From the NCBI RefSeq assembly GCF_007990755.1, contig NZ_BJXA01000002.1:310001-374000 (forward strand): 64,000 nt of DNA, written 5' to 3'. Both the position numbers and the translations under genes were made by a program. Shown piece by piece: positions 6,443 to 58,033 of the stretch. The stretch's first letter is position 1, and every line of letters starts with the position of its first letter. The notes under the pieces were generated by a model. The model was not told the DNA's origin. It did no database searches and worked only from the letters and a program-made list of their open reading frames with translations. The stretch is from Nocardia ninae NBRC 108245. Lineage in GTDB: Bacteria > Actinomycetota > Actinomycetes > Mycobacteriales > Mycobacteriaceae.

Positions 6443-6471
6443 TTGACATGAGTGGTTGTGGTCGTTAAATT
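6443..6471 (+). promoter_or_regulatory. Candidate sigma-70-type promoter for PKS operon
   Basis: TTGACA (6443-6448), a 17-base spacer and TAAATT (6466-6471) form the best vegetative-type promoter seen in the window. Transcription would start near 6478, giving a leader of about 550 bases before the PKS start at 7031. Confidence 0.5.
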
Positions 6472-6849
6472 CTGTCCATGAGTGCGGATCTGGGCACTTG
6501 ACGTGAGGTGGGCACCGATCATGTGGACGTTCAGCGCGACGAGAACTACTCCCGATGACCTGATGCCTGCCTGCGCCGACCAGTCCAAACGCCTCATCGA
6601 CCACGACGCGTCGCATGCTCGGCGTCTTATCAGCTCGAGTCGACCATCGCACGATCGTGGATCGCGTGCTCACTTTGTTGTATTGAGTTCGGCCAACGAT
6701 GTCGGTGCCGCTGCTTGCCGCAGCCGACGGGATATGGCCGGCACGGGGTTCGGCAACGGCCGGGAATGCGAAACCGCCCGGTCGGTCACCGAAAGCCATT
6801 CGAATGGCGACCATCTCGTTGCAACAGTCATGTTCTTCGAGGGGGGAAC

Positions 6850-6951
6850 ATGACCGCCGGTGATCAATCAAGCCTGTCCGATATCGCCTCGCACACGGGA
6901 TCGATGCCGCCATCGCGCGCATCGCCACTGCCCAGCGGGTGGTCGATATAA
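6850..6951 (+). CDS. 33-residue upstream ORF in PKS leader
   Basis: The ATG at 6850 follows GAGGGGGGAAC, one of the strongest ribosome sites here. The 33-codon frame ends TAA at 6951, 79 bases before the PKS ATG. The peptide is Ser/Pro-rich (for example MPPSRASPLPSGWSI) with no known domain. It precedes a stable stem-loop, so it could be a leader peptide. Translation is inferred only from the ribosome site. Confidence 0.35.
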   Translation: MTAGDQSSLSDIASHTGSMPPSRASPLPSGWSI

Positions 6952-6962
6952 ATCCTGATCGG

Positions 6963-6993
6963 CTCGCGGGCAACAAATGGCGTTGCCCGCGAG
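6963..6993 (+). promoter_or_regulatory. 12-bp perfect stem-loop before PKS start
   Basis: CTCGCGGGCAAC (6963-6974), a 7-base loop and GTTGCCCGCGAG (6982-6993) form a perfect stem. There is no U-run after it, so it is not a standard terminator. It could be an RNA structure acting on translation or transcript stability, or a DNA operator. An upstream in-frame PKS ATG (6977) falls inside it, which argues for the start at 7031. Confidence 0.5.
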
Positions 6994-7030
6994 GTCGATA
7001 GTTGTGTGGTTACAAAACGAAGGTAATGCG

Positions 7031-10000
7031 ATGGAATCTGTGCACAGCTCCTCGATCGAGGCCGAGTCGACCGCGCACGAGGGCATAGCCGTCGTGGGAA
7101 TCGGTTGCCGGTTTCCAGGACAAATTTCCGATGTGGGCGACTTCTGGCAACTGCTGCTCGACGAGCGAGATGCGGTCCGCGAGGTCCCGGAGGACCGGTG
7201 GTCCGGCGCTGCCTTCTACGACCGCGATGCGGCAAGGCCCGGTCATCTGCGCACGCGATCGGGTGGATACCTCGACGACGTCAGTTCGTTCGACGCCCAA
7301 TTCTTCGGCATCACACCACACGAGGCCGCGCGGATAGACCCGCAGCAGCGCCTCTTCCTCGAAACGACCTGGGAAGCACTGCAGGACGCGGGCATCGTCC
7401 CGGAGCACCTGGCAGGCACCAAGACCGCCGTCTACGCGGGCGTCTCGGGCCACGACTACGGCATCATCCAGCTCAACCCGGAGAACCGCTACCTCATCGG
7501 TGGCCACACGATGACCGGTGTCACGAACTGCATCGTGGCCAACCGCGTCTCCTACCTGCTCGACCTGCGCGGCCCCAGCATGACCGTGGACACCGCATGC
7601 TCGTCCTCGCTCATCGCAATCCACCTGGCCTGCCGCAGCATTCGCACCGGTGAGGCGACGATGGCGATCGTCGGCGGTGTCAGCACGCTGCTCATCCCCG
7701 AGGCGACCATCGGATTCAGCCAGGGCACCTTCCTGTCGCCGGAGGGCCGGTCCAAGTCGTTCAGCGAGAACGCCGACGGCTACGTGCGCAGTGAGGGCTC
7801 GGGCACGATCGTGCTCAAGCCGCTGTCCGCGGCCATCGCCGACGGCGACCGCATCTACTCGGTGATCCGCGGCAGCGCGACGAACCAGGACGGCCGCACC
7901 AACGGCATCTCCGTGCCGAGCGAAGAAGCGCAGGCGCAGATGATCGAGGACGCCTGCCGCGACGCCGGTGTCGCGCCCGCCGACATCAGCTATGTCGAGG
8001 CGCACGGCACGGGCACCTCCGTCGGCGACCCGATCGAGGCCCGCGCGCTCGGCAAGGCCTTGGCGCCCGGACGTAATGGGCACGGCCCCTGCATCGTCGG
8101 CGCGGTGAAGTCGAACCTCGGCCACCTCGAGTCCGCGGCCGGTATCGCAGGCGTCATCAAGGCGTGTCTGGTGCTGTCCAACGGCGAGATTCCCGCGAAC
8201 CTGCACGCGGAGGTGCCGAACACCTCGATCCCGTTCGAGGAGTTGGGTCTGCAACTGGCTCAGTCCCGGCAGGCGTGGCCGAACGGGCGTCCGCGCCTGG
8301 CCGGTGTGAACTCCTTCGGGTTCGGTGGATCGAATGCCCACGTGATCCTGGAAGGCCCGCCGGAAGGCGTGGCGCAGGAGAACACGGACGCGGCAAACGC
8401 GAACGCGGACAAGATGACTGAGCGTTCGGCGACCGAAGCGGCCGAGCCGGTGCTGTTCGCGCTCAGCGCGAAGACCAAGGACGCGCTGCGCGCCTACGCC
8501 GACAGTTACGCCGACTTCCTGGCCGAGCCCACCACGAAGCTGTCCGCCATCGCGGCCACCCAGGCGAAGACGCGTGCGCACTACGACCACCGGCTCGCCA
8601 TGGTGTGTTCGTCCACCGACGAGCTACGCGACGCGCTGCGTGAGGTGGCGCGTGGCGCGGTGCCGGAGGTGCTGCGCACCGGCGTGAAGGCGCCGACCAT
8701 CTCGAACATCGCTTTCGTCTTCTCCGGCCAGGGCCCGCAGTGGTGGGGCATGGCGCGTGAGCTGCTCGCCACCAACGCGGTGTTCCGCCAGACGGTCGAG
8801 CGGATCGACGCCGAGCTGAGCAAGCACGCCGACTGGAGCGTCATCGAGGAGCTCGGCCGCGACGAGGCCGACAGCCGGATCGGGGAAACCTTCATCGCCC
8901 AGCCCGCCGTCTTCGCGGTGCAGCTCGGCTTGGCGGCCGTGTGGCAGAGCTGGGGTATCGTCCCCGCTGCCGTGGTCGGGCACAGCATCGGTGAAGTCGC
9001 CGCCGCCTGCGTGTCGGGGGCGTTGTCGTTCGAGGACGCGGTGCGAGTCATCTTCCACCGCAGCCGAGTCCAGCAGCAGGCCTCCGGCAAGGGCAAGATG
9101 CTCGCGGTCGGCCTGACGCACAGCGAGGTGGAGGAGCGGGTCGCCGGCTATCGCGGGCGGGTCGCCATCGCGGCGCTCAACGGCCCGCAGTCGGTGGCGC
9201 TGGCCGGTGATCCGGACGCGCTCGAGGAGATCGAGCGCGAGCTGAGCGCCGAGAAGATCTTCTGCCGCATGCTCCAGGTCAGCGTGGCCTTCCACAGCCA
9301 CCACATGGATCCGCTGCAGGACGAACTGGTCTCGTCGCTGGCCGGTCTCACCTCGGGCCCGGCGACCATCCCGATGTACTCCACGGTCTCCGCGGACATC
9401 GTGCCGACCGGTGGACTCGATGCCGAGTACTGGTGGCACAACGTGCGCGAGCCGGTGCGGTTCGCGCCGACCATCGATCGCCTGATCGAGGACGAGCACC
9501 TGGCGTTCGTGGAGCTGGGCCCGCACCCGATCCACGCGACCGCCATCTCGGAGCTGCTCGCGCAGCGCAACATCGAGGGCGTCGCCGTCGCCGTCGCCTC
9601 GCTGCATCGCAAGCAGAGCGATCGCGTCACCCTGCTGTCCTCGCTGGCCTCGTTGTATGCCGCCGGGTTCGACCCGGCGTGGGGCGCCCTGTTCGATGGG
9701 GCCGGCGAGCGGATACCGGTGCCGTTCTATCCGTGGCAGCGCGAAACCTATTGGGTGGAAACGCCTTCGGCCCGCGAGCGGCGCTTCCCGTCGCTGGCCC
9801 ATCCGCTGGTCGGTGATCAGGGCCGCGTCGCGGACGAGCCGGACAAGCATGTGTGGGAACTGGTGCTGGACCCGGCGGTGTACCCGTGGCTCGACGACCA
9901 CCGGGTGCAGGGCCCCATCGTCTTCCCCGGCGCCGCCTACCTGGACATGGTGCTCGGTTGCGCGGAAGACGCGTTCGGCCCGGGCCTGTACTCGCTCGAG

Positions 10001-13000
10001 GATGTCGAGTTCCGCCGCGCGCTGTTCGTCTTCGACGACCGCCCGGCCCCCGTCGTCCAGGTCGTGCTGACCCAGTCGATGCACTACTCGGTGTACAGCC
10101 GTCAGGACGGTGACAAGGACTGGACCCTGCACTCGGTCGGCACGCTGCGCCGCGGCGCCCCTGCCACCGAACTGCCGGTGCCGTTCGCCGAGCTCGAGGC
10201 GGAGTGCCCGCTCGAGATCGAACCCGCGAAGGTCTTCGCCAAGCTGCGCAACAACGGCCTGATGCTCGGCCCGACGTTCAAGGCGATCACCAAACTCGGG
10301 TACGCCGAACTGAAATCGCTCGGCCGGATCGACACCCCGGCGGCCCTCGAAGACGAGGCGCCCCGGCACGCGATCCATCCGGCGGTGCTCGACTCGTGCT
10401 TCCAGTCGCTGTCCATCTCGATGGGCAACGACCCGAACAACGAGGACAAGACGCTCTACCTGCCGGTCGAGGTGAAGCGGCTCAGCTTCTACGCCAAAGC
10501 CACCGGCCGGGTGTACTGCTACGGGCGCGCGCAGGTCAGCGACGACATTGCGTACTGCCACGGTGATCTGTGGATCGTCAACGAAGACGGAACGCTGGTA
10601 GCGGAACTCGAAGGCTTCCGCGGCAAGTCGATCACCACGACCACGGAGGACAGCGACGCGCTGCTGCAGTGGCTCTACGAGTTCCGCTGGCATCAGGCGC
10701 CGGTGCGCACCAAGACCCGCCTGCCCGCCGCGCTGCCCTCGGTCGAGGCGCTCGACACCGCCGTCGAGCCGCTGGTCGACGAGCTGCGGTACTGGTCGGT
10801 CAACCGCGAGTACCACGCGGGAACCGAAGCGGTGATGGACCGGCTCTGCATCGGGTACGTAACCGAGGCCTTCTACGAGCTCGGCATGGACCTCACCGTA
10901 GGCCGGCGTTTCACCGTCACCGAGCTCGCGGCCGAGATGGGCGTGCACGACAAGCACCACCGCTACCTCGCCCGCCTGCTGGAACTGCTGTCCCAGCACG
11001 GGATCACCGAAAAAGACGGTGACGCCTGGCGACTGCTGGTCGTGCCCGAGCGGTTCGACACCGCGGCCGAGCTCGCCCGGCTGAAGGACGAGCATTCCGA
11101 GTGCGAGCCCGAACTCGCCGTGCTCGGCCGCTGTGGCACGGACGTGGCGGCGGTGCTGCGCGATGACGTGAATCCGATCGAGCTGATCTTCCCCGAGGAC
11201 GAGTTCCAGTCGGTCGCCGACCTTTACGGTCCGTCGTTCTCGTTCGGCAAGGCCAACCGCATCGTCAGCCAGGTCGTCGCCGGGTGCGTGGCCGCGCTGC
11301 CGAGCGACCGGCCGATCCGGGTGCTCGAGATCGGCGCGGGCACGGGCGGCACCACCCCGTACGTCCTTTCCGAGCTGCCGCCGGAGCGTGCGGAATACGT
11401 GTACTCCGACATCACGCAGCTGTTCCTCGGCAAAGCGCGGCATCGGTTCAGCGAATACGACTTCATCGACTACCGGGTCCTCGACATCGAACGCGACATC
11501 GAGGGCCAGGGTTTCGACCCGCACTACTACGACATCGTGGTGGCCTCGAACGTCGTGCACGCCACCGAAAGCCTGACCGCCACCCTGGAAAACGTGCAGC
11601 GCCTGCTGACTTCGCAGGGTCTGCTGCTGGTCGTCGAGGCGACGGTGCCGCCGCACTGGGTCGACCTGACCTTCGGCATGACCGAGGGCTGGTGGAAGTT
11701 CAGCGACCACGACGTGCGGCCCGACTACCCGCTGATGCGGGAGGCGAAGTGGCGGGAGTTCCTGCCCAGCATCGGCTTCGAGGGCGTGCAGATCTTCTCC
11801 GATATGGCGACACCGGAGGAGACCGGCAACGCGGTGATCCTGGCGCGTACTCAGAGCATCGACCTCGAGCCGCACCAGCCGCGCATCGATCAGGCGCCCT
11901 GGGTGGTGCTCGCGGACGCGGACGGTGTCGGCGAACGCTACACCGCGCTGCTCGGCGAGGCAGGCTCGTCCGGCGTGCTCGTCACCCGCGGTGCCGAGTT
12001 CGAGCAGGTCGACGCCCGTACCTTCCGGGCCCGACCCACCAGCAGCGCGGATCTGCAGCGCGTGCTGGAGCAGGTGCGGGCCGACGCGGGTGACGTGGCC
12101 GGCGTGCTGCACCTGTGGAACCTGGATTTCGCGGGGACCGAGCTGACCACCGAGTTGCTTTCCGCGGTGGAGAGCGACGGCGCCTACAGCGTGATCGCGG
12201 CGGCCCAGGCCGTCGAGGAGCTGGACTGGGTGCAGGCCCCACGGCTGTGGGTGGCCACCTCGGGTGCCCACGTGCTGGATCGATCGGAACGTGTTGCGCT
12301 GAGCCAGGTGCCGAGCTGGGGCATCCTGCGGGTCACGTTGAGCGAGCACAGCAGTCTGCGTGCGAAGATCTTCGACTTCGATCCCACCGCGTCCGCCGAG
12401 CAGCGGGCCACTCAGCTCTTCGACGAGCTGCTGCACGTGGATGCGGCGGACGAGGAGATCGCCTTCCGCGGCGAGACCCGCTTCATCGACCGCCTCGAGC
12501 ATGTCTCGCTCGCCGAGTTCGAGGCCTCGGTCGCGACCCCGGCGAAGGTCTCGGACGAGACCCCGTTCGCGCTGGCGGTGCCCGCCGAGCCGGGGGTCGA
12601 GCAGCTGCGCTACGAAAGGCAGGAGCTGCCTGTCCTTTCCAGCGGCGAGATCACCATCCGGCCGCTGGCCACCGGTCTGAACTTCCGCGACATCATGCTG
12701 ACGCTCGGCCTGCTCTCGGCGGGTGCGACCTACGGCGGGTTCTACGACAACAACCTGGGCGTTGAGTGCGCGGGCATTGTCACCGAAGTCGGACCCGACG
12801 TGACCGGACTGGCGGTGGGCGACCGCGTGGTCGCCTTCGCTCGCGGCTGCTTCGGCAACCTGGTGGTCGCCGATGCCCGGCGGGTATACCCGGCACCGGC
12901 GAGCCTGTCGGATGTCGAGGCGGCGACGCTGCCGATGGCGTATCTCACCGCGTGGTACGCGCTGGTGGAAGTGGGCAGGCTGCGCCCGAGCGACCGGGTG

Positions 13001-15505
13001 CTGGTGCACGCGGCCGCCGGCGGCGTCGGTCTGGCCGCGGTGCACATCGCGCAGTCGTTCGGCGCGACGGTCGTCGCCACCGCGGGCAGCGAGGAGAAGC
13101 GGGATTACCTGCGCTCCTTGGGCATCGAGGATGTCTTCGACTCCCGGTCGCTCGACTTCGCCCAGGAGATCCGGCAGCGCTACGACGGCGTCGACATCGT
13201 GCTCAATTCGCTGCAGGGCGAGACGATTCCGAAGAGCCTCGAGCTGCTCCGCCCCCGCGGCCGCTTCCTCGAGATCGGCAAGAAGGACATCTACGACAAC
13301 TACAAGCTGGGTCTGAAGCCGTTCGGCAACAACCTGAGTTACTCGGCGATCGACATCGACCGGCTGCTCGGCGAGGACCCGGCGCTGTGCCGCGAGGCGA
13401 TGACCAAGGTGATCGAGGCGGTCAACGCGGGCACTCTGCCCGCGCTGCCGCACACCGATTTCGACGCGACCGAGGTGGCCGCGGCCTTCCGGTACATGGT
13501 CACCGCCAAGCAGATCGGCAAGATCGTCGTCGAGTACCAGCCCGACACCGAACTGCTGGTGCATCCGACGTCCGACGGCGCGGAGACCTTCGACGCCGAC
13601 GGCACGTACCTGATCACCGGTGGCTACAGCGGTTTCGGTCTGCGCACCGCCGAGTGGCTGGTCGAGAAGGGCGTCCGCACCGTAGTGCTGGTCGGCCGCC
13701 GCGGCCAGATCGACGAGGAGAACGCGGCGCCGATCGAGGCGATGCGGGCCCAGGGCGTCAACGTGGTGCTCGAACGGGCCGACGTGTCCATCGAGGCCGA
13801 GGTCGAGGGCCTGCTCGAGCGGATCGCACCGTTGCCGCCGCTGCGTGGGATCTACCACGCCGCAATGGTTCTCGCGGACGGACCGCTGGCGGGCATGACC
13901 GAGGAGCAGTTCCTGCGCACCGTGCAACCCAAGGTCGACGGCGCGTGGCACCTGCACAATCACACCCGCGACCTCGAGCTCGACGCGTTCGTCATGTACT
14001 CGTCGATGAGCTGGAACGTCGGCACCCCCGGCCAGGCGAACTACGCGGCGGCCAACGGGTTCCTGGAAGCCCTTGCCACGCACCGCCGTGAGCTCGGACT
14101 GCCTGCCCTGACCGTCAACTGGGGCGCTCTCGCCGAGGTCGGGTTCGTCGCACGCAACAAGCTCGACACGCTGGCCCGGCTCGGCTGGACGCCGATCCTG
14201 CCGGACCACGCGCTCGAGTTCGTCGGCCGGTGCCTGGCCCAAGGTGTCACCAGCACCAGCGTTTTCGGCGTCAACTGGGCGAAGATGAACCAGGTCATGC
14301 CGATCATCCGGAGCTCGCCGCGGCTGGCTCATCTGGCCATGGCCGACACCGTCGGCACCGCGAGCACCGGCGGCACCGAGGGCCTGCGCGCCGAACTGCT
14401 CGAACTGGAAGAGGACGCACGCCAGCCCCGGCTGGTGGAGGCGTTGTCGCAGCAGATCTCGCGGATCTTCGACATGCCGATCGACCGTCTCGCGCACGAT
14501 GTCGCGCTGACCGACCTCGGGATGGACTCGCTGATGGCGGGTCAGATCCGCAACGCGCTGGCCAAGCACCTCGATATCGACTTCCCGACCATGGGCCTGA
14601 TGCGCGGACCGACGCTCATCGAGCTGTCGAACGAGGTCCTCGCCCAGGTCTTCGGTGAGGCGACCGGTGTGCTGCCTGCAGTGGCGGAAAACGCAGGCCC
14701 GCAACGCTGGATCCACACGGTGAAGGGCCGGTCCAGCACCGCGTCGCTGCGGGTGTTCGCCCTGCCGTTCGTCGGTGGTGGTGCCTCGGTCTTCACGCCG
14801 TGGCCGAACTTCCTGCCGGACACCGTCGAGGTGGTGGGTATCCAGTACCCGGGCCGCGAGGATCGGGTCAACGAGGTCCCGATCGACGCCATGCCCGAGT
14901 TCATCGAGGAACTGGCCGACGCCATGCTGCCGCACCTGGATCGCACCTTCGCGATCTACGGGCACAGCATGGGCAGCCTGCTGGCCTACGAGCTCACCAA
15001 GTATCTCGAGCAGAACTACGCCGAGGTCCCGCTCAAGCTGATCATCGGTGGCTGGCCCTCACCCGCCCTGGTGGAAAGCTACGTGCGGAACCTGAAGCAC
15101 ATCCGCGACGGCTTCGACATGGATCGGGAATCCGACAGCCGGGTGCTGCAAGTGTTGCGCGACAACGAGCTGCTCACCATCCCGGTCGAGGACGAGGCCT
15201 CGGTGAAGCCGATGATGCCCGCGGTGCGGGCGGACCTGAAGATGCTGGGCGACTACCGCTTCGAACACGGTGTCGCGTTGCGGGCGCCGATCACGGTGCT
15301 GCGCGGTGCGGAGGACCACCTGTTCGAGGCCGACCAGCTGCAGGGCTGGGAGAAGTTGACCAGCGGCCGGTTCGAACTGAAGACCGTGCCCGGCGGCCAC
15401 CTGTTCATCCAGAACCCGAGTGCCCAGGTGATGCGGACGATCGCCGACGAACTGTCCGCCGACGACGCCTTCCCGTCCTTCACCAGCCTTTTCGAAGAGC
15501 GCTGA
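7031..15505 (+). CDS. Single-module fully reducing type I PKS (KS-AT-DH-cMT-ER-KR-ACP-TE)
   Basis: This is a 2824-residue polyketide synthase; GAAGG precedes the ATG at 7031. Approximate domains are KS 18-440 (Cys190 in DTACSSS, later EAHGTGT and KSNLGH), AT 557-857 (GHSIGE, Ser652; VAFHS, the malonyl-type pattern), DH 923-1207 (HRVQGPIVFP, His957), C-methyltransferase 1250-1600 (LEIGAGTGGTT), a linker or pseudo-KR, ER 1853-2170 (NFRDIML; AAAGGVGLAAV), KR 2190-2423 (TGGYSGFG; NYAAAN), ACP 2470-2543 (GMDSLM, Ser2500) and a thioesterase 2573-2816 (GHSMGS, Ser2646; final GGH). Every domain looks catalytically intact. The order equals that of fungal highly reducing synthases plus a TE, so iterative use giving a saturated, C-methylated acyl chain is likely (inference). 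It heads an operon reaching the LuxR gene. Confidence 0.93.
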   Translation: MESVHSSSIEAESTAHEGIAVVGIGCRFPGQISDVGDFWQLLLDERDAVREVPEDRWSGAAFYDRDAARPGHLRTRSGGYLDDVSSFDAQFFGITPHEAARIDPQQRLFLETTWEALQDAGIVPEHLAGTKTAVYAGVSGHDYGIIQLNPENRYLIGGHTMTGVTNCIVANRVSYLLDLRGPSMTVDTACSSSLIAIHLACRSIRTGEATMAIVGGVSTLLIPEATIGFSQGTFLSPEGRSKSFSENADGYVRSEGSGTIVLKPLSAAIADGDRIYSVIRGSATNQDGRTNGISVPSEEAQAQMIEDACRDAGVAPADISYVEAHGTGTSVGDPIEARALGKALAPGRNGHGPCIVGAVKSNLGHLESAAGIAGVIKACLVLSNGEIPANLHAEVPNTSIPFEELGLQLAQSRQAWPNGRPRLAGVNSFGFGGSNAHVILEGPPEGVAQENTDAANANADKMTERSATEAAEPVLFALSAKTKDALRAYADSYADFLAEPTTKLSAIAATQAKTRAHYDHRLAMVCSSTDELRDALREVARGAVPEVLRTGVKAPTISNIAFVFSGQGPQWWGMARELLATNAVFRQTVERIDAELSKHADWSVIEELGRDEADSRIGETFIAQPAVFAVQLGLAAVWQSWGIVPAAVVGHSIGEVAAACVSGALSFEDAVRVIFHRSRVQQQASGKGKMLAVGLTHSEVEERVAGYRGRVAIAALNGPQSVALAGDPDALEEIERELSAEKIFCRMLQVSVAFHSHHMDPLQDELVSSLAGLTSGPATIPMYSTVSADIVPTGGLDAEYWWHNVREPVRFAPTIDRLIEDEHLAFVELGPHPIHATAISELLAQRNIEGVAVAVASLHRKQSDRVTLLSSLASLYAAGFDPAWGALFDGAGERIPVPFYPWQRETYWVETPSARERRFPSLAHPLVGDQGRVADEPDKHVWELVLDPAVYPWLDDHRVQGPIVFPGAAYLDMVLGCAEDAFGPGLYSLEDVEFRRALFVFDDRPAPVVQVVLTQSMHYSVYSRQDGDKDWTLHSVGTLRRGAPATELPVPFAELEAECPLEIEPAKVFAKLRNNGLMLGPTFKAITKLGYAELKSLGRIDTPAALEDEAPRHAIHPAVLDSCFQSLSISMGNDPNNEDKTLYLPVEVKRLSFYAKATGRVYCYGRAQVSDDIAYCHGDLWIVNEDGTLVAELEGFRGKSITTTTEDSDALLQWLYEFRWHQAPVRTKTRLPAALPSVEALDTAVEPLVDELRYWSVNREYHAGTEAVMDRLCIGYVTEAFYELGMDLTVGRRFTVTELAAEMGVHDKHHRYLARLLELLSQHGITEKDGDAWRLLVVPERFDTAAELARLKDEHSECEPELAVLGRCGTDVAAVLRDDVNPIELIFPEDEFQSVADLYGPSFSFGKANRIVSQVVAGCVAALPSDRPIRVLEIGAGTGGTTPYVLSELPPERAEYVYSDITQLFLGKARHRFSEYDFIDYRVLDIERDIEGQGFDPHYYDIVVASNVVHATESLTATLENVQRLLTSQGLLLVVEATVPPHWVDLTFGMTEGWWKFSDHDVRPDYPLMREAKWREFLPSIGFEGVQIFSDMATPEETGNAVILARTQSIDLEPHQPRIDQAPWVVLADADGVGERYTALLGEAGSSGVLVTRGAEFEQVDARTFRARPTSSADLQRVLEQVRADAGDVAGVLHLWNLDFAGTELTTELLSAVESDGAYSVIAAAQAVEELDWVQAPRLWVATSGAHVLDRSERVALSQVPSWGILRVTLSEHSSLRAKIFDFDPTASAEQRATQLFDELLHVDAADEEIAFRGETRFIDRLEHVSLAEFEASVATPAKVSDETPFALAVPAEPGVEQLRYERQELPVLSSGEITIRPLATGLNFRDIMLTLGLLSAGATYGGFYDNNLGVECAGIVTEVGPDVTGLAVGDRVVAFARGCFGNLVVADARRVYPAPASLSDVEAATLPMAYLTAWYALVEVGRLRPSDRVLVHAAAGGVGLAAVHIAQSFGATVVATAGSEEKRDYLRSLGIEDVFDSRSLDFAQEIRQRYDGVDIVLNSLQGETIPKSLELLRPRGRFLEIGKKDIYDNYKLGLKPFGNNLSYSAIDIDRLLGEDPALCREAMTKVIEAVNAGTLPALPHTDFDATEVAAAFRYMVTAKQIGKIVVEYQPDTELLVHPTSDGAETFDADGTYLITGGYSGFGLRTAEWLVEKGVRTVVLVGRRGQIDEENAAPIEAMRAQGVNVVLERADVSIEAEVEGLLERIAPLPPLRGIYHAAMVLADGPLAGMTEEQFLRTVQPKVDGAWHLHNHTRDLELDAFVMYSSMSWNVGTPGQANYAAANGFLEALATHRRELGLPALTVNWGALAEVGFVARNKLDTLARLGWTPILPDHALEFVGRCLAQGVTSTSVFGVNWAKMNQVMPIIRSSPRLAHLAMADTVGTASTGGTEGLRAELLELEEDARQPRLVEALSQQISRIFDMPIDRLAHDVALTDLGMDSLMAGQIRNALAKHLDIDFPTMGLMRGPTLIELSNEVLAQVFGEATGVLPAVAENAGPQRWIHTVKGRSSTASLRVFALPFVGGGASVFTPWPNFLPDTVEVVGIQYPGREDRVNEVPIDAMPEFIEELADAMLPHLDRTFAIYGHSMGSLLAYELTKYLEQNYAEVPLKLIIGGWPSPALVESYVRNLKHIRDGFDMDRESDSRVLQVLRDNELLTIPVEDEASVKPMMPAVRADLKMLGDYRFEHGVALRAPITVLRGAEDHLFEADQLQGWEKLTSGRFELKTVPGGHLFIQNPSAQVMRTIADELSADDAFPSFTSLFEER

Positions 15506-15527
15506 CCAGCTCGAACGGAGTAGAACG

Positions 15528-20416: not shown

Positions 20417-20443
20417 ATCTTTCCCCCTCAGCGAGGTTTTACG

Positions 20444-44780: not shown

Positions 44781-44817
44781 GGTGTTCATACCTCTCTTTC
44801 GGGACTTTCTCCGCCTG

Positions 44818-46250: not shown

Positions 46251-46319
46251 AAACCCCCCGATCGGGGGGTTTCGAATTCGCCGATAGCCCCCTTTTCGGG
46301 GGGTTGCGGATTCTCCGCA
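46251..46319. repeat. Three tandem hairpins
   Basis: Hairpin 1 is AAACCCCCC-GATC-GGGGGGTTT (46251-46272, perfect 22-bp palindrome). Hairpin 2 is CCCCC-TTTTC-GGGGGG (46288-46303). Hairpin 3 is TGCGGA-TTC-TCCGCA (46305-46319). They lie between the two divergent candidate promoters, so neither predicted main transcript would contain them. They may be bidirectional terminators or an insulator, or a DNA-level binding site. Confidence 0.6.
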
Positions 46320-51425: not shown

Positions 51426-52264
51426 AACTTGTCGGAGTCGTCGGGGCCGGCGTGATGGGTTCTGGTCTCGCGCAAGCCCTTGCGGCACATGGATACTCCG
51501 TGGTGCTGGTGGACCGCGCCCAAGCCCAGCTGGACCGGGCGGCGGACGAGGTCGTCCGGTACGCCCGCACCGGGCGCCTGTTCGGCCACGACACCGAGAA
51601 GTACGGCGACCTGACCCAGCGGGTGAGCTACACGACCGAGCTCGGCGACCTCGGCGCCGCGGAGTTCGTCATCGAGAACATCACCGAGAACTGGTCGCTC
51701 AAGGCCGAGATCTATCCGCGATTGGACGAGATCTGCCCGCCCGAAACGGTTTTCGCGGCCAACACGTCGTGTATTCCGATCACCAAGATCGCCGGGGCCA
51801 CCCGGCGCCCCGATCGGGTACTCGGCATGCACTTCATGAACCCGGTGCCGATGAAGTCCACCGTCGAGGTGATCCGCGGCTGGCATACCTCCGAGGCCAC
51901 CATCGCCACCGCGATGGAGCTGCTCGAAGGCCTGGAGAAGCGCGGCATCGTCGTCAACGACATGCCGGGCTTCGTCTCCAATCGGGTGCTGATGCTGATG
52001 GTCAACGAGGCGATCTTCTTGCTCCAGGACGGTGTGGCCGGGGCGGCCGAGGTCGACGAGATCTTCCGGTCCTGCTTCGGGCACGCGTCGGGTCCGCTGG
52101 AGACCGCGGATCTCATCGGGCTCGACACCATCCTGTACAGCATCGAGGGTCTCCAGGAGTTCTACGGAGACAGCAAGTATCGGCCGTGCCCGCTGCTCCG
52201 CAAGATGGTCGACGCCGGACTACACGGCCGGAAAACCGGTCAGGGCTTCTTCTCGTACTCGTGA
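51422..52264 (+). CDS. 3-hydroxyacyl-CoA dehydrogenase-like enzyme (FkbK-like)
   Basis: This 280-residue protein overlaps the PKS stop by ATGA. The NAD loop is [21 protein letters not shown], with [29 protein letters not shown] (catalytic region), [19 protein letters not shown] and a helical C-terminal domain ending [12 protein letters not shown]. In methoxymalonyl-ACP and hydroxymalonyl-ACP pathways this enzyme oxidises glyceryl-ACP at C2/C3 (FkbK, ZmaG type). Its position directly before an ACP, an acyl-ACP dehydrogenase and an FkbH-like gene makes that assignment strong. Confidence 0.88.
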
Positions 52265-52309: not shown

Positions 52310-52573
52310 ATGTTCTCCGACGCCCGTTCCGAAATCCGTGAATTCGTCGCCAAGCGATTCCCCGACGGCCGGCTCGAAGACGATCACGACATCTTCGAAA
52401 GCGGCTTCGTCAACTCGCTTTTCGCGATGGAACTGGTCATGTTCATCGAGCAGCACCTCGGCGACCGCATCCCCAACGACGAGCTGATGCTGGACAACTT
52501 CCGGACGGTGAACGTGATGACCGACCTGGTCGGCAGGCTCAGCGGCGGTGGCGCGGCCACCGAGGTGGCGTGA
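52310..52573 (+). CDS. Discrete acyl carrier protein (FkbJ-like)
   Basis: This is an 87-residue carrier protein. The phosphopantetheine site is ESGFVNSLFAMEL, with Ser36 preceded by Asn instead of the usual Asp, as often seen in glyceryl/hydroxymalonyl carriers. It carries the glyceryl unit made by the FkbH-like enzyme while the two dehydrogenases oxidise it. The stop overlaps the acyl-ACP dehydrogenase start (GTGA). Confidence 0.9.
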   Translation: MFSDARSEIREFVAKRFPDGRLEDDHDIFESGFVNSLFAMELVMFIEQHLGDRIPNDELMLDNFRTVNVMTDLVGRLSGGGAATEVA

Positions 52574-53727
52574 TGCCGGTGCAGGCGGAGTCCGGCGTCG
52601 GCGCGTGGTCGCGGGCCGAGATCGCCGCGTTCGTGGACAAGGTGGTCGCGCCGCGGGCCGCCGAGTTCGATCGGACGGCCCGGATCGACCCGAGCATCAT
52701 TGCCGAGTTCGCCGCTCGGGGCCTGTGGGGTGCGGTGCTGTCGGAGGCGGACGGCGGCACCGGCGCGGGCATGACCACTCTCGCGGAGGTGCACGAGGAG
52801 GTGGGCCGCGGCTGTTCGTCCATGCGCAGCCTGCTGACCGTGCACTCGATGGCGCTGTACGCGCTGGACCGCTGGGGGACCGAGACGGCCAAGGAGCGGT
52901 GGAAGGCCGACCTCGTCGCCGGTAACGCGCTCGGCGCGTTCTGCCTCACCGAGCCGGAAGCCGGTAGCGACTTCGCCGCGCTACAGGCCTCGGCCCGGCG
53001 CACCGACGACGGGTGGGTGCTCGACGGCCACAAACTCTGGGTCACCGGCGGTCAGCTCGCCGACGTGTTGCTCGTCTTCGCGCGCACCGCGGTGGGCCCG
53101 GCTGCCTTCGTGGTGGAGGCGGCGAACCCAGGCATCAGCCGAATCCCGGTGCGCGACATCACCGGAACCCGCGGCAGCCAGGTCGCCGAGATCGTCTTCG
53201 ACAACTGCGAAGTCGGCGCCGACGCGCTCATCGGCCCCGAGGGCATGGGGCTGGCCATCGCGACCGGCGTGCTCGATATCGGGCGCTTCAGTGTCGCCGC
53301 GGGGTGCGTCGGCATCCTGCAAGCGTGTCTGAATGCCTGCGTGAGTTACGCCAATACGCGCCATCAGGGCGGCGCGCTGCTGCGCGAACACCAGCTCGTG
53401 CAGCAGATGATCGCCACCATCGCTACCAACACCCGGGCGGCGCGGCTGCTGGTCTGGCAGGCCGCGCGGCTCAAGGACACCGGCAGCCCCGACACGATCA
53501 TGGCGACCTGTATCGCCAAACAGTTCGCCGCCACCGCGGCGGCGGCCGCGGCCAACGACGCGGTCCAATTGCACGGTGCGCGTGGCTGTACCGACGAATA
53601 TCCGGTCGGCCGCTACTTACGCGATGCCAAGGTCATGGAAATCATCGAGGGCAGCACACAGCTGCAACACATCCTCATCGCCGCCGACGCGTGCCGAAAT
53701 CAGGCGCGCGTCATCCCCATCGACTGA
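52570..53727 (+). CDS. Acyl-CoA/acyl-ACP dehydrogenase (FkbI-like)
   Basis: This is a 385-residue flavoprotein. Acyl-CoA dehydrogenase signatures are FCLTEPEAGSDFAALQ and the C-terminal ARGCTDEYPVGRYLRDAKVMEIIEGSTQLQ, which contains the catalytic Glu. In extender pathways of this type it converts the aldehyde/hydroxy intermediate on the ACP to the 2-hydroxymalonyl stage (FkbI, ZmaE). The context (carrier upstream, FkbH-like downstream) supports this over fatty acid beta-oxidation. Confidence 0.88.
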   Translation: MMPVQAESGVGAWSRAEIAAFVDKVVAPRAAEFDRTARIDPSIIAEFAARGLWGAVLSEADGGTGAGMTTLAEVHEEVGRGCSSMRSLLTVHSMALYALDRWGTETAKERWKADLVAGNALGAFCLTEPEAGSDFAALQASARRTDDGWVLDGHKLWVTGGQLADVLLVFARTAVGPAAFVVEAANPGISRIPVRDITGTRGSQVAEIVFDNCEVGADALIGPEGMGLAIATGVLDIGRFSVAAGCVGILQACLNACVSYANTRHQGGALLREHQLVQQMIATIATNTRAARLLVWQAARLKDTGSPDTIMATCIAKQFAATAAAAAANDAVQLHGARGCTDEYPVGRYLRDAKVMEIIEGSTQLQHILIAADACRNQARVIPID

Positions 53728-53764: not shown

Positions 53765-54832
53765 ATGAACTCGGATGTCGGTAAGCGTCCCCGCCAGATC
53801 AAGTGCGTGGTCTGGGATCTGGACCATACCCTGTGGGACGGTGTCCTGCTGGAGAACGCCACGGTCACCGATCTCAAGGCCGGGATCCGGGAAACCATTG
53901 CCACGCTGGACGAACGCGGGATCCTGCACTCGGTCGCCAGTCGCAACGATCCGGAGATCGCGCTGGCCAAGCTCACCGAGCTGGGGATCGCCGAATATTT
54001 CCTGTACCCGCAGATCGGGTGGGACAACAAGTCCGCCTCGGTCGCGGCGATCGCCGAGCGGCTCAATATCGGGATCGACACGCTCGCCTTCGTCGACGAT
54101 CAGGAGCTCGAACGCGATGAGGTCCGGTTCGCCCATCCCGAGGTGCTCTGCATCGACGCCGTGGATGCGATGTCCCTGGTGGACCGGCCGGAATTCCAGC
54201 CGAAGCACGTGACCGCGGACTCGCGGATGCGCCGCCAGATGTACCGGGCGAGCATCGAGCGGACCACTGCGGAGGAACGGTTCTCCGGCACCAATGAGCA
54301 GTTCCTGGCCACCCTCGGTATGCGTTTCGCGATCAGTCCGGCCCGCGCCACCGACATCGGCCGGGCCGAGGAACTCGTCGTCCGGACCAATCAGCTGAAC
54401 TCGACGGGAATCATGTACTCGGCGCAAGAGCTTGCCGCCCTTGCCGAGTCCGACGACCACCTGCTGTTGATGGCCGAACTGGAAGACAAGTACGGGACCT
54501 ACGGGCAGATCGGTCTCGCGCTGGTGGAGCGCGGTGCCACGCAGTGGCGGCTGAAGCTGCTGCTCATGTCGTGCCGGGTGATCTCGCGCGGTGTCGGGAC
54601 GGTGCTGCTCAACCATGTGGTGCGGCTGGCCCAGGTCGAAGGTGCGCGGCTGGTTGCCGAATTCGTGCCCACCGATCGGAACCGAATCATGTACATCACT
54701 TACCGATTCGCCAATTTCGAGGAGATCGGCGAGGAGGACGGCGTCACGCTGCTGGGCGCTTCGACCACACCGCCACCGCATCCGCCGGACTATCTGACGG
54801 TAGAAACGGCCACCACGGCGGCCCGACTATGA
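53765..54832 (+). CDS. fkbH: FkbH-like glyceryl-ACP synthase (HAD superfamily)
   Basis: This 355-residue enzyme captures 1,3-bisphosphoglycerate, dephosphorylates it and attaches the glyceryl group to the discrete ACP. The HAD motif I is VVWDLDHTLWDGVL (nucleophile Asp and general acid Asp), followed by SVASRND (motif II), WDNKSASVAAIAERL (motif III Lys) and LAFVDDQELERDEVRF (motif IV acids). The C-terminal half is the GNAT-like domain typical of the family (VRTNQLNSTGIMYSAQEL). It completes the hydroxymalonyl-ACP set. No dedicated FkbG-type O-methyltransferase is adjacent. Confidence 0.92.
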   Translation: MNSDVGKRPRQIKCVVWDLDHTLWDGVLLENATVTDLKAGIRETIATLDERGILHSVASRNDPEIALAKLTELGIAEYFLYPQIGWDNKSASVAAIAERLNIGIDTLAFVDDQELERDEVRFAHPEVLCIDAVDAMSLVDRPEFQPKHVTADSRMRRQMYRASIERTTAEERFSGTNEQFLATLGMRFAISPARATDIGRAEELVVRTNQLNSTGIMYSAQELAALAESDDHLLLMAELEDKYGTYGQIGLALVERGATQWRLKLLLMSCRVISRGVGTVLLNHVVRLAQVEGARLVAEFVPTDRNRIMYITYRFANFEEIGEEDGVTLLGASTTPPPHPPDYLTVETATTAARL

Positions 54833-55587
54833 ATGCTCCCACCATCGATACGCGCAAATGGATGCCGTACCCGCCGATCGGCGGCGCGGCGACGACCCTG
54901 TACTGCCTGCCGCACGCCGGGGCGGGGGCCTCGACCTACCTGCCGTGGCGCAAACTGCTGCACCCCGATATCGACGTGGTGCCGCTGCAGCCGCCGGGGC
55001 GCGAAATGCGCATGCGGGACGAGCCTTTCGAGCACCTGACCCCGCTGCTGGACGACCTGCTCGCGGCAATGGAGGGTGCGTGGCGGGCACCGTTCGTGCT
55101 GTTCGGGCACAGCTTGGGCGCGCTCATCGCCTACGAATTGGCGCGTCGGCTCTCCGCGGGCGCGGGGCCGCGGCCGGCGCGGCTGATCGTGTCCGGACGC
55201 CGTGGGCCGCAACATCCTTCGCGGTTGCCGTGGATCCGATTCGCCTCGGACGAGATGCTGCTGGATATCGTGCGGATGCTCGGCGGCACCCCGGCGGAGG
55301 TGCTCGCCGACGAGCAGATGCGGGAGTCGGTCCTGACGCTGACGCGGGCGGATCTGGGGGTCGACCAGACGTATGTGTATCGGCCGGACCCGCCGCTCGA
55401 TATCCCGATCACCGTGCTGAGCGGCAGCGCCGATCCGCACGTCAACGCGACCGAGCTCGAGCAGTGGCACGAGTGCGGCTCGGCCGGGGTCGACATCCGG
55501 ATGGTGCCCGGCGGGCACTTCTTCCCGATCTCGCACCGCGACGCCGCACTGCGTCACGTCCGGGACTGTGTGGTGGGGTCGCCATGA
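54829..55587 (+). CDS. Type II thioesterase
   Basis: This 252-residue alpha/beta hydrolase of the RifR/GrsT class overlaps the FkbH-like gene by ATGA. It shows CLPHAGAGASTYLPWRKLL, PLQPPGREMRM, FVLFGHSLGALIAYELARR (nucleophile Ser about 96), an Asp-containing SGSADPHV and MVPGGHFF (catalytic His). Such enzymes clear mis-primed carriers. Because the neighbouring PKS lacks its own thioesterase, it could also take part in release (inference). Confidence 0.88.
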   Translation: MNAPTIDTRKWMPYPPIGGAATTLYCLPHAGAGASTYLPWRKLLHPDIDVVPLQPPGREMRMRDEPFEHLTPLLDDLLAAMEGAWRAPFVLFGHSLGALIAYELARRLSAGAGPRPARLIVSGRRGPQHPSRLPWIRFASDEMLLDIVRMLGGTPAEVLADEQMRESVLTLTRADLGVDQTYVYRPDPPLDIPITVLSGSADPHVNATELEQWHECGSAGVDIRMVPGGHFFPISHRDAALRHVRDCVVGSP

Positions 55588-56321
55588 TCGGTGGCACCGT
55601 CTTGCGGCGGACGATCGCCTCCGACGAGGTCGAACTGTGGTGGGTGCGGCTGACGGGTGAGCACTCCGCCGAGGATCGCCGGGTGTTGTCCGCCGGGGAG
55701 TTCGTGCGCAGCACCCGGTTCGACACCGCCGAGTTCACGGCCGACTTCATTCGTACCCGAGCCGCGCTGCGGCGGGTGCTTTCGGCCTATACGGGCAGTC
55801 TCCCCGAGGACCTCGTCTTCGCTACCGGACGTCACGGGAAGCCGGAATTGGCCGACAGTACAACGGCATTCAATCTCACACACACCCACGGGCTCGCTGT
55901 CGTCGCTGTAGCAGGGGCGGGATCGATCGGCGTCGACGTCGAGTCGGTCGACACCGATTTCGACCTGGACGGGCTGGCGCCACGGGTGCTCACAACGCGC
56001 GAAGCCGCCGGGGTAGGCACCGATCGGCGGCGATTTCTGCACCACTGGGTGGCTAAGGAGAGCTACCTGAAGTGGTTGGGTAGCGGACTGACGGTGTCGC
56101 CCGACGCGATCGAGTTGCGCGCCGATCATCAAGGCCGTGCCGTCATCGCGGCCGTCGATGGCGACCTGCCGACGGCGTACGTCCAGCATTTCGGCCTGAA
56201 CTCGTGGCACGCCGGTGCCTTCGTCGGCGATCACCCCGAACCTCGTTTCACGCTGCGCCCGGCCGAATCGGTCTGTGTCGCAGCGAATCTCCGTCGCCGG
56301 ACCTCAGGAGTGCAAGCATGA
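55584..56321 (+). CDS. Sfp-type 4'-phosphopantetheinyl transferase
   Basis: This 245-residue enzyme activates carrier proteins. Motifs are RHGKPEL, FNLTHTHGLAVVAV, GSIGVDVESVDTD (Mg-binding acids) and HHWVAKESYLKWLGSGL (W..KE signature). It overlaps both neighbours by four bases, so it is made together with the PKS and carrier it should modify. Confidence 0.9.
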   Translation: MIGGTVLRRTIASDEVELWWVRLTGEHSAEDRRVLSAGEFVRSTRFDTAEFTADFIRTRAALRRVLSAYTGSLPEDLVFATGRHGKPELADSTTAFNLTHTHGLAVVAVAGAGSIGVDVESVDTDFDLDGLAPRVLTTREAAGVGTDRRRFLHHWVAKESYLKWLGSGLTVSPDAIELRADHQGRAVIAAVDGDLPTAYVQHFGLNSWHAGAFVGDHPEPRFTLRPAESVCVAANLRRRTSGVQA

Positions 56322-58033
56322 CAACCAATTCCCCGGTCGAACCGGCCACCCTCGTCGAGCTGCTGACCATGCGCGCCGCCGCCACGCCGGACGAGGTGCG
56401 TTTCCGTCACCTGGGCGACGGTGACGAGGTCACCGCGACACTGACCTTGCCGGAGCTCGACCGCAGCGCCCGTGCCGTCGCCGCGCATCTGGCGGGGATC
56501 ACGCAGCCGGGGGAGCGGGCGCTGCTGCTCTATGCCCCCGGCCTGGAATTCGTTGTCGCGTATTACGGATGCCTCTATGCCGGTGTGATCGCGGTGCCGG
56601 TGGCGCCGCCGCAGCCGAACAAGCTGGCGGACAGCCTGGCGCGACTGGCTTCCATCACCGCCAATTCCGGTGCACGGCTGCTGCTCACCGGTGCCGAGAT
56701 CGAGCCGCTGCTCACCCCGGTGCTGGCCGAGGCCGATGGCTTCGCGGGGCTGCGCACCGTGATCACCGACCGCATCGATCTCGCCGAGGCGGACGGTTAC
56801 CGCGATCCGGGCGTCACGGCGGACAGCGTTGCACACCTGCAGTATTCGTCCGGGTCGACCGGGGAACCGAAGGGAGTCGTGCTCACGCACCGCAACGTCC
56901 TCGCCAACCTGCGGCTGGTCACCGATGAGATCGGCGCCGGTGTCGGGGTGGCCTGGTTGCCGACCTTCCACGACATGGGTTTGCTCAGCATGGTCACCTA
57001 TCCGGTGTACAGCGGCTCGACCGTGATCAGTATGTCGCCCTTGGCATTTGTGCAGCGGCCCGCACGCTGGATCGCGGCGATGTCCCGGTTCGGGGCCACG
57101 CACACCGTCGCCCCGAACTTCTCCTTCGGGCTCGCCGTGCGGCGGGTGCCTGCCGAGCAGGTCGGCAATTACGACCTGTCACCGCTGCGGGTGGCGCTCT
57201 GCGGTGCGGAACCCGTGCGTGCGGAGACCATGGCCACCTTCGCGGACCACTTCCGCGCGGCAGGCTTCGACGCACACAGCCTGTTCCCGTGCTACGGCCT
57301 CGCCGAGGCGACGCTGCTGGTGACCGGCGGCCCGGCCGGCAGCGGACTCACCACGGTCGAGGTCGACCCGACCGCGCTGGCCAAGGGGCGGGTGGAGCCG
57401 GTGGGCGGCGGTGGCCGCCGGTTGGTGGCCAGTGGTCAGCTCAACGATGCCTACGAACTCGTCCTCGCCGACACCGAGACGCTGACGCCGCTGCCGGAAG
57501 GTCAGGTCGGCGAGATCTGCCTGCGCGGCGACAGCATCGGCAAGGGGTACTGGGACGCACCGGAGGCGGTGGCCGCCACCTTCGCCGCCACCGTCACCGG
57601 TCGCACCGGGCACTTCCTGCGCACCGGTGATCTCGGCTTCGTGCACGAGGGACAGCTGTACGTCACCGGGCGCAGCAAAGACCTCATCATCGTGGACGGC
57701 TACAACCACTACCCGTCCGATATCGAAGCCTCCGCGATGTACTCGCATCCGGCACTGCGCCCCGACCGCTGCGTGGCGTTCCAGGTGCTGGACAGCGACG
57801 AACCCGCTCTGGTCGTGGTCGCCGAGGTGAACCGCGGCGAGAACCCCGACGCTACCGCCAAGGACGAGATCGTCACGGCCGTGCGTCGAGCGGTCGGTGA
57901 GCATCACGGATTGCGGCTCAACGACGTGGTGCTGGTGACGACCGGCTCGGTGCCGCTGACCTCCAGTGGCAAGATCCGCCGCTACGCGGTCCGCGAGCAG
58001 TATCGAGACGGTGCGCTGACCGTGCTGCCCTGA
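56318..58033 (+). CDS. Fatty-acyl-AMP ligase (FAAL)
   Basis: This is a 571-residue adenylate-forming enzyme of the FAAL branch. P-loop LQYSSGSTGEPKGVVLTHRN, WLPTFHDMGLLSM and the RPARWIAAMSRFGATHTVAPNF region are typical. LFPCYGLAEATLLVTGG and FLRTGDLGFVHEGQLYVTGRSKDLIIVDGYNHYPSDIE, the latter with the FAAL-type hinge, support it. FAALs load fatty acids onto carriers instead of CoA. It is the last gene of the operon and most probably primes the N-terminal carrier of the ACP-KS-AT-KR-ACP synthase. The chain length is unknown. The acid could come from the reducing PKS. Confidence 0.9.
   Translation: MTTNSPVEPATLVELLTMRAAATPDEVRFRHLGDGDEVTATLTLPELDRSARAVAAHLAGITQPGERALLLYAPGLEFVVAYYGCLYAGVIAVPVAPPQPNKLADSLARLASITANSGARLLLTGAEIEPLLTPVLAEADGFAGLRTVITDRIDLAEADGYRDPGVTADSVAHLQYSSGSTGEPKGVVLTHRNVLANLRLVTDEIGAGVGVAWLPTFHDMGLLSMVTYPVYSGSTVISMSPLAFVQRPARWIAAMSRFGATHTVAPNFSFGLAVRRVPAEQVGNYDLSPLRVALCGAEPVRAETMATFADHFRAAGFDAHSLFPCYGLAEATLLVTGGPAGSGLTTVEVDPTALAKGRVEPVGGGGRRLVASGQLNDAYELVLADTETLTPLPEGQVGEICLRGDSIGKGYWDAPEAVAATFAATVTGRTGHFLRTGDLGFVHEGQLYVTGRSKDLIIVDGYNHYPSDIEASAMYSHPALRPDRCVAFQVLDSDEPALVVVAEVNRGENPDATAKDEIVTAVRRAVGEHHGLRLNDVVLVTTGSVPLTSSGKIRRYAVREQYRDGALTVLP

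Follow-up and report, generated by a model that had tools for sequence, protein, structure and literature searches.

A 64,000-nucleotide stretch of the Nocardia ninae NBRC 108245 genome (contig NZ_BJXA01000002.1, positions 310,001 to 374,000; G000:C2:310001-374000 in our labelling of a 9.70-Mb genome in 204 contigs), hereafter the window, carries a biosynthetic region in which two polyketide synthases (PKSs) lie beside halogenase-like genes, an importer and relatives of arginine-processing genes. Genes were called from open reading frames (ORFs) and codon-position GC and named through Pfam, NCBIfam and sequence comparison with Protein Data Bank (PDB) structures, and by these matches every gene class listed in an initial annotation of the sequence is present. 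Missing from that list were a relative of 2-ketoarginine methyltransferase, an acyl-CoA synthetase, thioesterases, a phosphopantetheinyl transferase (PPTase), a LuxR-type regulator, an S58 peptidase and the gene u23459. The genes form five same-strand units, running from a highly reducing PKS (hrPKS) to the LuxR regulator (+ strand), from a PanC paralogue to S58 (−), from a DUF4440-like gene to OppF (+), from HpaB to P450a (−) and from PKS2 to a fatty acyl-AMP ligase (FAAL; +). With ORF starts as used, neighbours overlap at 18 of 32 same-strand junctions, a count that may be overstated, as a number of starts were estimated or taken from the longest ORF and probably lie too early, that of FAAL most of all. 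As had been proposed, none of the genes scanned with Pfam showed a condensation or adenylation module of a nonribosomal peptide synthetase (NRPS).

The last two units diverge from each other and constitute what we call core C. On the − strand, the gene at 41682-42812 encodes a pyridoxal phosphate (PLP)- and O2-dependent enzyme of the MppP type, with MppP itself as the best PDB match (248.6 bits) and 230 bits against TIGR04462 (cut-off 450); its NLSDGHPR segment and its CYSSS and EDTGKLWP motifs were found in 10 of 10 orthologues. MppP has been described as an O2-using arginine oxidase yielding 2-keto products (PMC7497351). Next to it lies a ureohydrolase gene (42790-43773, −; Pfam), for which the closest PDB entries were guanidinobutyrase and proclavaminate amidinohydrolase, both guanidino-acid enzymes. 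The ureohydrolase metal motifs GGDHS, DAHRD and DIDFVDP were present in 10 of 11 matches, the exception being probably an unrelated gene of genome G104. The following gene (43770-44858, −) is the 2-ketoarginine methyltransferase relative (TIGR04543, 249.7 bits, cut-off 425), which shares 32% identity with a plasmid-borne Streptomyces protein annotated as 2-ketoarginine methyltransferase. Among its plasmid relatives (nine records found), an ATP-grasp gene lay within about 6 kb in two of the three loci inspected, and one such locus has a neighbour annotated as beta-methylarginine aminotransferase. MrsA, the methyltransferase of the 3-methylarginine cluster of P. syringae, has been grouped with keto-acid methyltransferases (PMC10502145). 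An HpaB-family FADH2 monooxygenase (44818-46044, −; Pfam, PDB), whose segments GRSPDF and THAISD recur in 10 of 10 orthologues, completes this part. The block had been labelled an arginine-oxidation block; arginine oxidation, C-methylation and urea removal would describe it better.

These relatives of MppP and 2-ketoarginine methyltransferase could also mean that the sole output of the core is an unusual amino acid, either enduracididine or 3-methylarginine, destined for an NRPS encoded at another place in the genome. We consider this highly improbable. MppP's partners in enduracididine formation are an aminotransferase (MppQ) and an acetoacetate-decarboxylase-like protein (MppR). Among the genes called, Pfam detected neither a second class I/II aminotransferase nor an acetoacetate-decarboxylase family member, nor was any other enduracididine enzyme seen in the region. 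The core's sole PLP enzyme scored 25.4 bits against the methylarginine aminotransferase model TIGR04544 (cut-off 350), and the ureohydrolase would strip the guanidine. Moreover, MppP-like genes occurred in 10 other genomes of 394 from the same class, and the 20-kb stretches around them contained no methyltransferase, ureohydrolase, HpaB, GNAT or ATP-grasp match at E ≤ 1e-6. A pathway to an NRPS-bound amino acid was rejected on the equivalog scores and these partner-free loci.

Two further − strand genes bear on amide formation. The first (39875-40552) encodes a GNAT N-acyltransferase (Pfam Acetyltransf_8) whose best PDB match was Rv1347c/MbtK (E 1.3e-21, 80 bits), with SidF matching weakly; MbtK transfers acyl chains to a lysine amine. 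The second (40553-41698) encodes a putative ATP-grasp ligase, matched by NCBIfam PRK02186 at E 6.6e-8, far below cut-off, while Pfam returned no match and a profile search against PDB sequences was empty. The top five PDB fold matches of its AlphaFold model were all ATP-grasp proteins, PylC and RimK included, at query TM scores of 0.25-0.36; since the mean pLDDT of the model was 51, they support the family name ATP-grasp only. Its plasmid relatives also carry an ATP-grasp annotation. A ureohydrolase paired with an ATP-grasp enzyme would also be conceivable as a D-cycloserine-like logic. It had been suggested that amide formation in the region would rest on unusual ligases. Because the closest relative of the GNAT protein is MbtK, this view does not hold as stated, and amide formation appears less exotic than first proposed, with the PKS chain passing to an amine through an MbtK-like enzyme and an ATP-grasp ligase acting in addition. 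The remainder of the unit consists of two cytochromes P450 with the haem motif (P450b, 38608-39912; P450a, 35122 to about 36411), a 2-hydroxyacid dehydrogenase-like gene with its dehydrogenase motif (37655 to about 38620) and an exporter of the major facilitator superfamily (MFS; 36432 to about 37650), all on the − strand and assigned by Pfam.

The + strand half of core C begins with PKS2 (46548-51425), a Pks13-like synthase of the order ACP-KS-AT-KR-ACP (Pfam, with two PP-binding stretches; NCBIfam). It aligned to Pks13 from position 17, that is, over the acyl carrier protein (ACP) and KS domains, and an N-terminal ACP followed by a KS is, as in Pks13, the arrangement fed by a FAAL. A FAAL gene lies at the end of the unit (56204-58033, true start probably about 56318; Pfam, NCBIfam), and the two together suggest that a fatty acid is loaded onto the first ACP. 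Between them stand FkbK (51422-52264), the FkbJ ACP (52310-52573, with its ACP motif) and FkbI (52570-53727), all named by Pfam and NCBIfam, and FkbH (53765-54832; NCBIfam 273.9 bits, cut-off 146.65; FkbH motif), an adjacent and complete hydroxymalonyl-ACP set of FkbH, ACP, acyl-CoA dehydrogenase and 3-hydroxyacyl-CoA dehydrogenase. An FkbG-type O-methyltransferase was absent from the FkbK-FkbH run. Such a set lacking the methyltransferase leads to hydroxymalonyl-ACP, which suggests this extender here. A type II thioesterase (about 54820-55587) and a PPTase (about 55584-56321), both assigned by Pfam, precede FAAL.

Block A occupies the left of the region on the + strand. Its iterative-type hrPKS (6977-15505) has the order KS-AT-DH-cMT-ER-KR-ACP-TE by Pfam and active-site motifs, and the motif VAFHSH of its acyltransferase (AT), which we take to mark a malonyl-type AT, was found in 18 of 19 copies, the remaining copy not being covered there. 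FDH1 (15528-17102; Pfam), a flavin-dependent halogenase- or monooxygenase-like protein with only distant PDB matches (best 65 bits), retains its WxWxIP motif in 19 of 19 copies. Further along are a long-chain acyl-CoA synthetase (ACSL; 17314-19101; NCBIfam PRK08279, 653.6 bits, cut-off 625) and, by Pfam, an alpha/beta hydrolase (19098-19916) and a 4HBT hotdog thioesterase (19882-20382). After these block A genes come, again by Pfam, a CPA2 cation/proton antiporter (20387-21841) and the LuxR-type regulator (21838-22560). N. ninae has a second hrPKS-FDH1-4HBT locus on another contig (L068, G000:C22:1-20000, about 5800-16900), which lacks the arginine core and whose hrPKS and FDH1 are about 74% identical to those of the window.

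Blocks B and T, for halogenase and import, separate A from the core. On the − strand are the S58/P1-family peptidase (22577-23452; Pfam), u23459 (23459-24442), to which Pfam assigned no family, and the PanC paralogue (24465-25448). On the + strand are a DUF4440-like gene (25534-26055; Pfam 23.7 bits, slightly under the cut-off of 25.2), the phenol-type flavin-dependent halogenase FDH2 (26052-27644; Pfam, PDB), u27645 (27645-28928; a weak TPR match only) and a TauD/TfdA dioxygenase (28925-29959; Pfam) with two motif segments conserved wherever covered. The best PDB match of FDH2 was the tetracycline 7-halogenase CtcP (366.9 bits, nearly full length), followed by PltM (303 bits). Two halogenases had been proposed for the region; both proteins belong to the Trp-halogenase/CmlS superfamily, FDH2 being clearly halogenase-like and FDH1 only distantly so. 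An Opp/Nik-type ABC importer (30087-35103, +; Pfam, NCBIfam), made up of an SBP_bac_5 solute-binding protein, two permeases and two ATPases, follows, and the two transport systems expected from the initial annotation, this one and the MFS exporter, are joined by the CPA2 antiporter. The solute-binding protein resembles NikA, the opine-metallophore binder CntA and others. Together with a GNAT protein like the siderophore acyltransferase MbtK and weakly like SidF, this might point to a metallophore, in which an acylated, hydroxylated arginine-derived unit binds metal and is taken up again by the importer. We regard that as quite unlikely, given that the best solute-binding match is the glutathione-type GsiB and all scores lie far below cut-off, that N. 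harenae, although the core is intact, gave no match to the importer genes at its locus, and that no ornithine- or lysine-type N-hydroxylase was seen among the genes scanned.

We followed the blocks through 150 genomes of the genus, using ATP-grasp as marker for core C, FDH1 at E ≤ 1e-100 for A and u27645 for B. Core C was present in 11 genomes, N. ninae (G000) included, and A in 17, among them all 11 core carriers; u27645 was detected in 12, of which 10 are core carriers and all lie within the 17 FDH1 genomes. The A marker thus occurred in 11/11 core carriers versus 6/139 other genomes (Fisher p 8e-13), and in 6/6 versus 5/138 after close species had been collapsed to lineages (Fisher p 4e-8); the B marker occurred in 10/11 versus 2/139. 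In partial samples of the phylum and the class, with few first-look candidates scored per genome, the ATP-grasp profile had no match at E ≤ 1e-15 in the other 395 of 396 phylum genomes, and HpaB none at E ≤ 1e-50 in the other 393 of 394 class genomes. Alignment of ATP-grasp against 84,980 species genomes, a scan that used two peptide patterns and may miss distant relatives, gave eight loci, all in Nocardia: N. suismassiliense, N. brasiliensis (two strains), N. vulneris, N. colli, N. harenae, N. pseudobrasiliensis and N. tenerifensis. A plasmid-borne cluster was also considered and dismissed, the plasmid relatives of the two proteins searched being all less than 60% identical.

Gene order was compared between the window and the ATP-grasp surroundings in the 10 other carriers, with extra contigs added in the case of G030 and G129. 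A single contig carries hrPKS, halogenase/PanC, Opp, arginine genes and FAAL in this order in the window and in G127, G041, G032, G143, G029 and G031 (the limit of the compared stretch falls within the hrPKS in G029 and G031 and cuts off a little of it in G143), S58 not being found in G041 (N. colli); G030 and G129 have the cluster pieces split by contig ends. Within the core the order is the same across carriers as far as contigs permit, except in N. pseudobrasiliensis, where P450a is absent. An insert lies between OppF and P450a in G143, G029 and G031; in the N. brasiliensis group (L031-L033 of G031; L025-L026 of G143) it spans about 5 kb and, as read from translations, holds genes for an Hsp20-like protein and for a protein of 650-670 residues that is probably anchored in the membrane. 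The stretch compared in N. harenae (G062) yielded no match to PanC, u23459, DUF4440, FDH2, u27645, TauD or the Opp genes. In that of N. pseudobrasiliensis (G090), hrPKS, FDH1, ACSL, 4HBT, PanC and P450a were not found and CPA2 matched at only 41% identity; its hrPKS-FDH1-ACSL-4HBT locus is on another contig, which fits supply in trans. FDH1 itself was located at 21 places, 10 in core-type clusters and 11 elsewhere, of which 10 were inspected (the second copy in G129 was left out). In G113 and G086 the hrPKS is accompanied by PanC, S58, u23459, DUF4440, FDH2, u27645 and CPA2 and lacks TauD, Opp and the arginine core. A ureohydrolase-like match (56% identity) lies near the free A locus of G104. 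In an FDH1 tree of 20 rows, nine of the ten core-type copies formed one clade (support 100/100) and that of N. harenae fell outside it, weakly placed, so that A and C were possibly joined once or twice.

Apparently, the proposal of one large hybrid cluster was right in part: an NRPS-free region is kept as a unit in the window and six genomes and in pieces in two more, and its parts are separable, as free A loci, N. harenae without B and T and the unlinked A of N. pseudobrasiliensis demonstrate. A single indivisible cluster is ruled out by the free A loci and by the A and B loci without the core. The region is a modular stack of sub-clusters (A, B, T and core C) rather than one unit, and it illustrates how clusters are assembled from movable sub-clusters.

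Our reading of its function, held at slightly short of even confidence, is a modular Nocardia supercluster that joins a fatty chain to an arginine-derived unit, with A feeding C. FAAL would adenylate a fatty acid and pass it to the N-terminal ACP of PKS2, which would add one extender, most likely hydroxymalonyl, and reduction would give a 2,3-dihydroxyacyl-ACP. Alongside this, arginine may be converted by the MppP-like oxidase to a 2-keto (possibly 4-hydroxy) acid, the methyltransferase may add a C3 methyl group to this keto acid, and the ureohydrolase would remove urea to expose a free amine. The MbtK-like GNAT would then move the acyl chain from the ACP to this amine or one related to it, the ATP-grasp ligase could form a second amide or a ring, HpaB, the P450s and the hydroxyacid dehydrogenase could tailor the product, and the MFS protein would export it. 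In block A, the hrPKS is predicted to make a C-methylated, reduced chain, released by the TE domain, that serves as a FAAL starter or is attached separately. Block B would halogenate a phenol-like or enol-like position, and its changed PanC may provide a pantoate-type amide or self-protection. A concrete route from arginine oxidation, C-methylation and urea removal to MbtK-like acyl transfer is thereby suggested.

Several observations weigh against this scheme. The MppP-like and methyltransferase scores are well under the curated equivalog cut-offs, so the substrates may differ, and 3-methylarginine itself is not expected because a second class I/II aminotransferase is missing. The ATP-grasp assignment rests on weak matches. 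The AT of PKS2 has an atypical motif, GYSLG instead of the usual GHSxG (protein positions 745-753); 10 of 10 orthologues share it, and it may have to do with an extender carried on an ACP. FDH2 resembles the phenol halogenases CtcP and PltM in sequence, yet a phenol source is not evident in the present cluster. The Fisher values treat lineages as independent, with only a crude collapse for relatedness. One simple test for an operator common to the five units revealed conserved stretches but no shared motif, the pattern tried giving 23 matches versus 28.3 expected from shuffles; the gene overlaps from which coordinated expression had been proposed are present, and shared regulation of the five blocks finds no support here. 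Lastly, the arginine core was present in none of the 10 further A loci inspected and six genomes have A without C, implying that A has its own product. Two or three independent clusters could accordingly share a neighbourhood: A would make a methylated polyketide, A and B together a halogenated one, while the lipid-arginine product of C would be a compound apart, with only location and perhaps regulation in common. We give this a substantial chance, though one clearly below even: A and B without C in G113 and G086, C without linked A in N. pseudobrasiliensis or without B in N. harenae, and a thioesterase of its own for each PKS agree with it, whereas the presence of A somewhere in the genome of all 11 C carriers and the adjacency of the blocks in distant species favour the joined supercluster.

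The PanC paralogue of block B matched the NCBIfam panC model at 291.9 bits, over the equivalog cut-off of 212.75. A search of 27 genomes gave one PanC copy in each of ten comparison genomes and three in each of nine full-cluster genomes, with two in G113, G086, G090 and G136 and one in G062, G018, G087 and G104. In N. ninae the housekeeping copy, on contig C9, lies beside PanD-like and type III pantothenate-kinase-like genes (names read from translations); "housekeeping-type" is thus defined by context in this genome and by similarity in the others. A third type, found in 11 of the 27 genomes, is located on contig C52 of N. ninae in a PEP-mutase-like phosphonate cluster. As read from translations, that locus (L128, G000:C52:39001-59000, about 1-10900) holds PEP-mutase-like, phosphonopyruvate-decarboxylase-like, AMP-ligase, ACP, aminotransferase and ABC genes with the divergent third PanC, and a locus of G090 (L130) has a similar arrangement. 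In a tree of 42 rows, the 11 cluster copies (support 93/88), 27 housekeeping-type copies (91/87) and 4 of the 11 third-type copies (100/100) separated into three groups, the first two with support slightly below the strict threshold.

With residues numbered by alignment to the M. tuberculosis chain, His135 was replaced by Leu in 11 of 11 cluster copies and kept in 27 of 27 housekeeping-type and 4 of 4 third-type copies. Ala137 was changed to Gly in all 11 and only in this group, and Glu128 to Cys in all 11, a change common to the third type. All 11 cluster copies kept Pro38, Met40, His44, His47, Asn69, Gln72, Phe157, Lys160, Asp161, Gln164 and Arg198, and hence the HxGH motif, the pantoate-binding Gln72 and Gln164, and Lys160. 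Compared with pantothenate synthetase PanC, the cluster protein therefore retains the pantoate and adenylate residues and differs at His135, Glu128 and Ala137. His135 and Arg198 contact the beta-alanine carboxylate (PMC9780415), and His135 and Glu128 are listed among the active-site residues (PMC11317409). As the His135 contact is lost while the pantoyl-adenylate residues are kept, we read the cluster PanC as having a changed amine site, and thus either as a ligase that takes a different amine or as a duplicate that resists inhibition; this is one clear predicted substrate change. As a neofunctionalised pantoate-amine ligase, it would form pantoyl-adenylate and join it to an amine that lacks the beta-alanine carboxylate, such as a beta-alanyl amide or an amine made by the cluster, and give a pantothenamide-type CoA antimetabolite within or beside the lipid-arginine product, a proposal that we consider fairly unlikely. 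We hold it unlikely, too, that the gene is a self-resistance duplicate, the product inhibiting pantothenate synthetase and the changed copy keeping the cell alive. The grouping of the cluster copies apart from the housekeeping type with pantoate and adenylate residues intact, and the retention of a housekeeping-type copy in all 11 genomes with a cluster PanC, would suit such a role, but loss of the His135 contact should weaken the normal reaction (PMC9780415), and G062 and G090 have the core without the cluster PanC.

The genome of N. tenerifensis NBRC 101015, which we take to be the same type strain as IFM 10554T, carries the cluster and the Leu-variant PanC. N. tenerifensis IFM 10554T produces dehydropropylpantothenamide, a pantothenic-acid amide observed only in co-culture with animal cells (PMC11364655, section 8), and that section names no gene cluster for it. 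The present cluster is a candidate source, against which it counts that the compound still contains beta-alanine and that the same genome has a third PanC.

The region had been delimited to 6443-58033. A right edge near 58033 finds support in the next gene, CHAD, which is common only with G127 in the stretches compared, and G127 is a close neighbour with cluster proteins 93-100% identical to those of the window. The left edge should shift to about 3162, because a DUF6545/MAB_1171c-like membrane protein gene (3162-4427, −) and an M78/IrrE-like gene (4431-4970, −), named by Pfam/NCBIfam with MAB_1171c and M78 matches below cut-off, accompany the hrPKS in other genomes. They adjoin it in G127, G041, G032, G030 and G062, and also adjoin further hrPKS copies (G136, G018, G000b, G041b and G127b). 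An adjoining ORF (5676-6308) has a weak HTH_31 match, and the genes at 3162-6308 are possibly regulators of block A. Further left, 1107-3116 encodes a protein of 669 residues that begins with a cutinase-like domain, seen elsewhere only beside the G127 cluster in the stretches compared, and a class III aminotransferase gene at 62364 is outside the conserved part. Between the divergent HpaB and PKS2, positions 46252-46317 hold two similar 30-base hairpin-forming repeats with a perfect CCCCCCGATCGGGGGG palindrome; orthologous promoters retain part of this stretch.

Searches of mostly open-access literature found no characterised cluster with this gene set, in agreement with the initial annotation, which had recognised none. 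Passages of two Nocardia reviews (PMC11364655, PMC11762266), a genus-wide survey (PMC7413640), a seven-strain survey (PMC4035055) and a paper on another cluster (PMC13061610) contain no description of it; N. brasiliensis-specific PKS clusters are listed in PMC4035055, and the present cluster may be among them. Free of NRPS genes, conserved and as yet apparently uncharacterised, the cluster belongs to a genus that includes pathogens.

Its parts nevertheless resemble known systems. With the enduracididine pathway (MppP, PDB 5dj1) it shares an arginine oxidase homologue that has the conserved N-terminal DGH segment and the PLP-site motifs, but this homologue scores 230 bits, below the MppP cut-off of 450, and a methyltransferase and a ureohydrolase stand in place of further enduracididine enzymes. 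Like the 3-methylarginine system (MrsA/MrsB), it has a 2-ketoarginine methyltransferase relative near a PLP enzyme, although here the PLP enzyme is of the MppP type rather than a methylarginine aminotransferase and the ureohydrolase sits between the two. Mycobactin lipid transfer employs the FAAL MbtM and the acyltransferase MbtK, and FAAL, ACP and MbtK-like GNAT are likewise combined in one cluster here, whereas a PKS module would extend the chain and neither NRPS nor salicylate genes were seen in the region. The FkbH/I/J/K hydroxymalonyl-ACP set is known from zwittermicin; all four genes lie in one run here, FkbH above cut-off and no O-methyltransferase in the run, and would serve one Pks13-like module, whose AT motif is atypical. 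The parts are known, and their combination, an NRPS-free hybrid of PKS and amino-acid enzymes, appears to be new.

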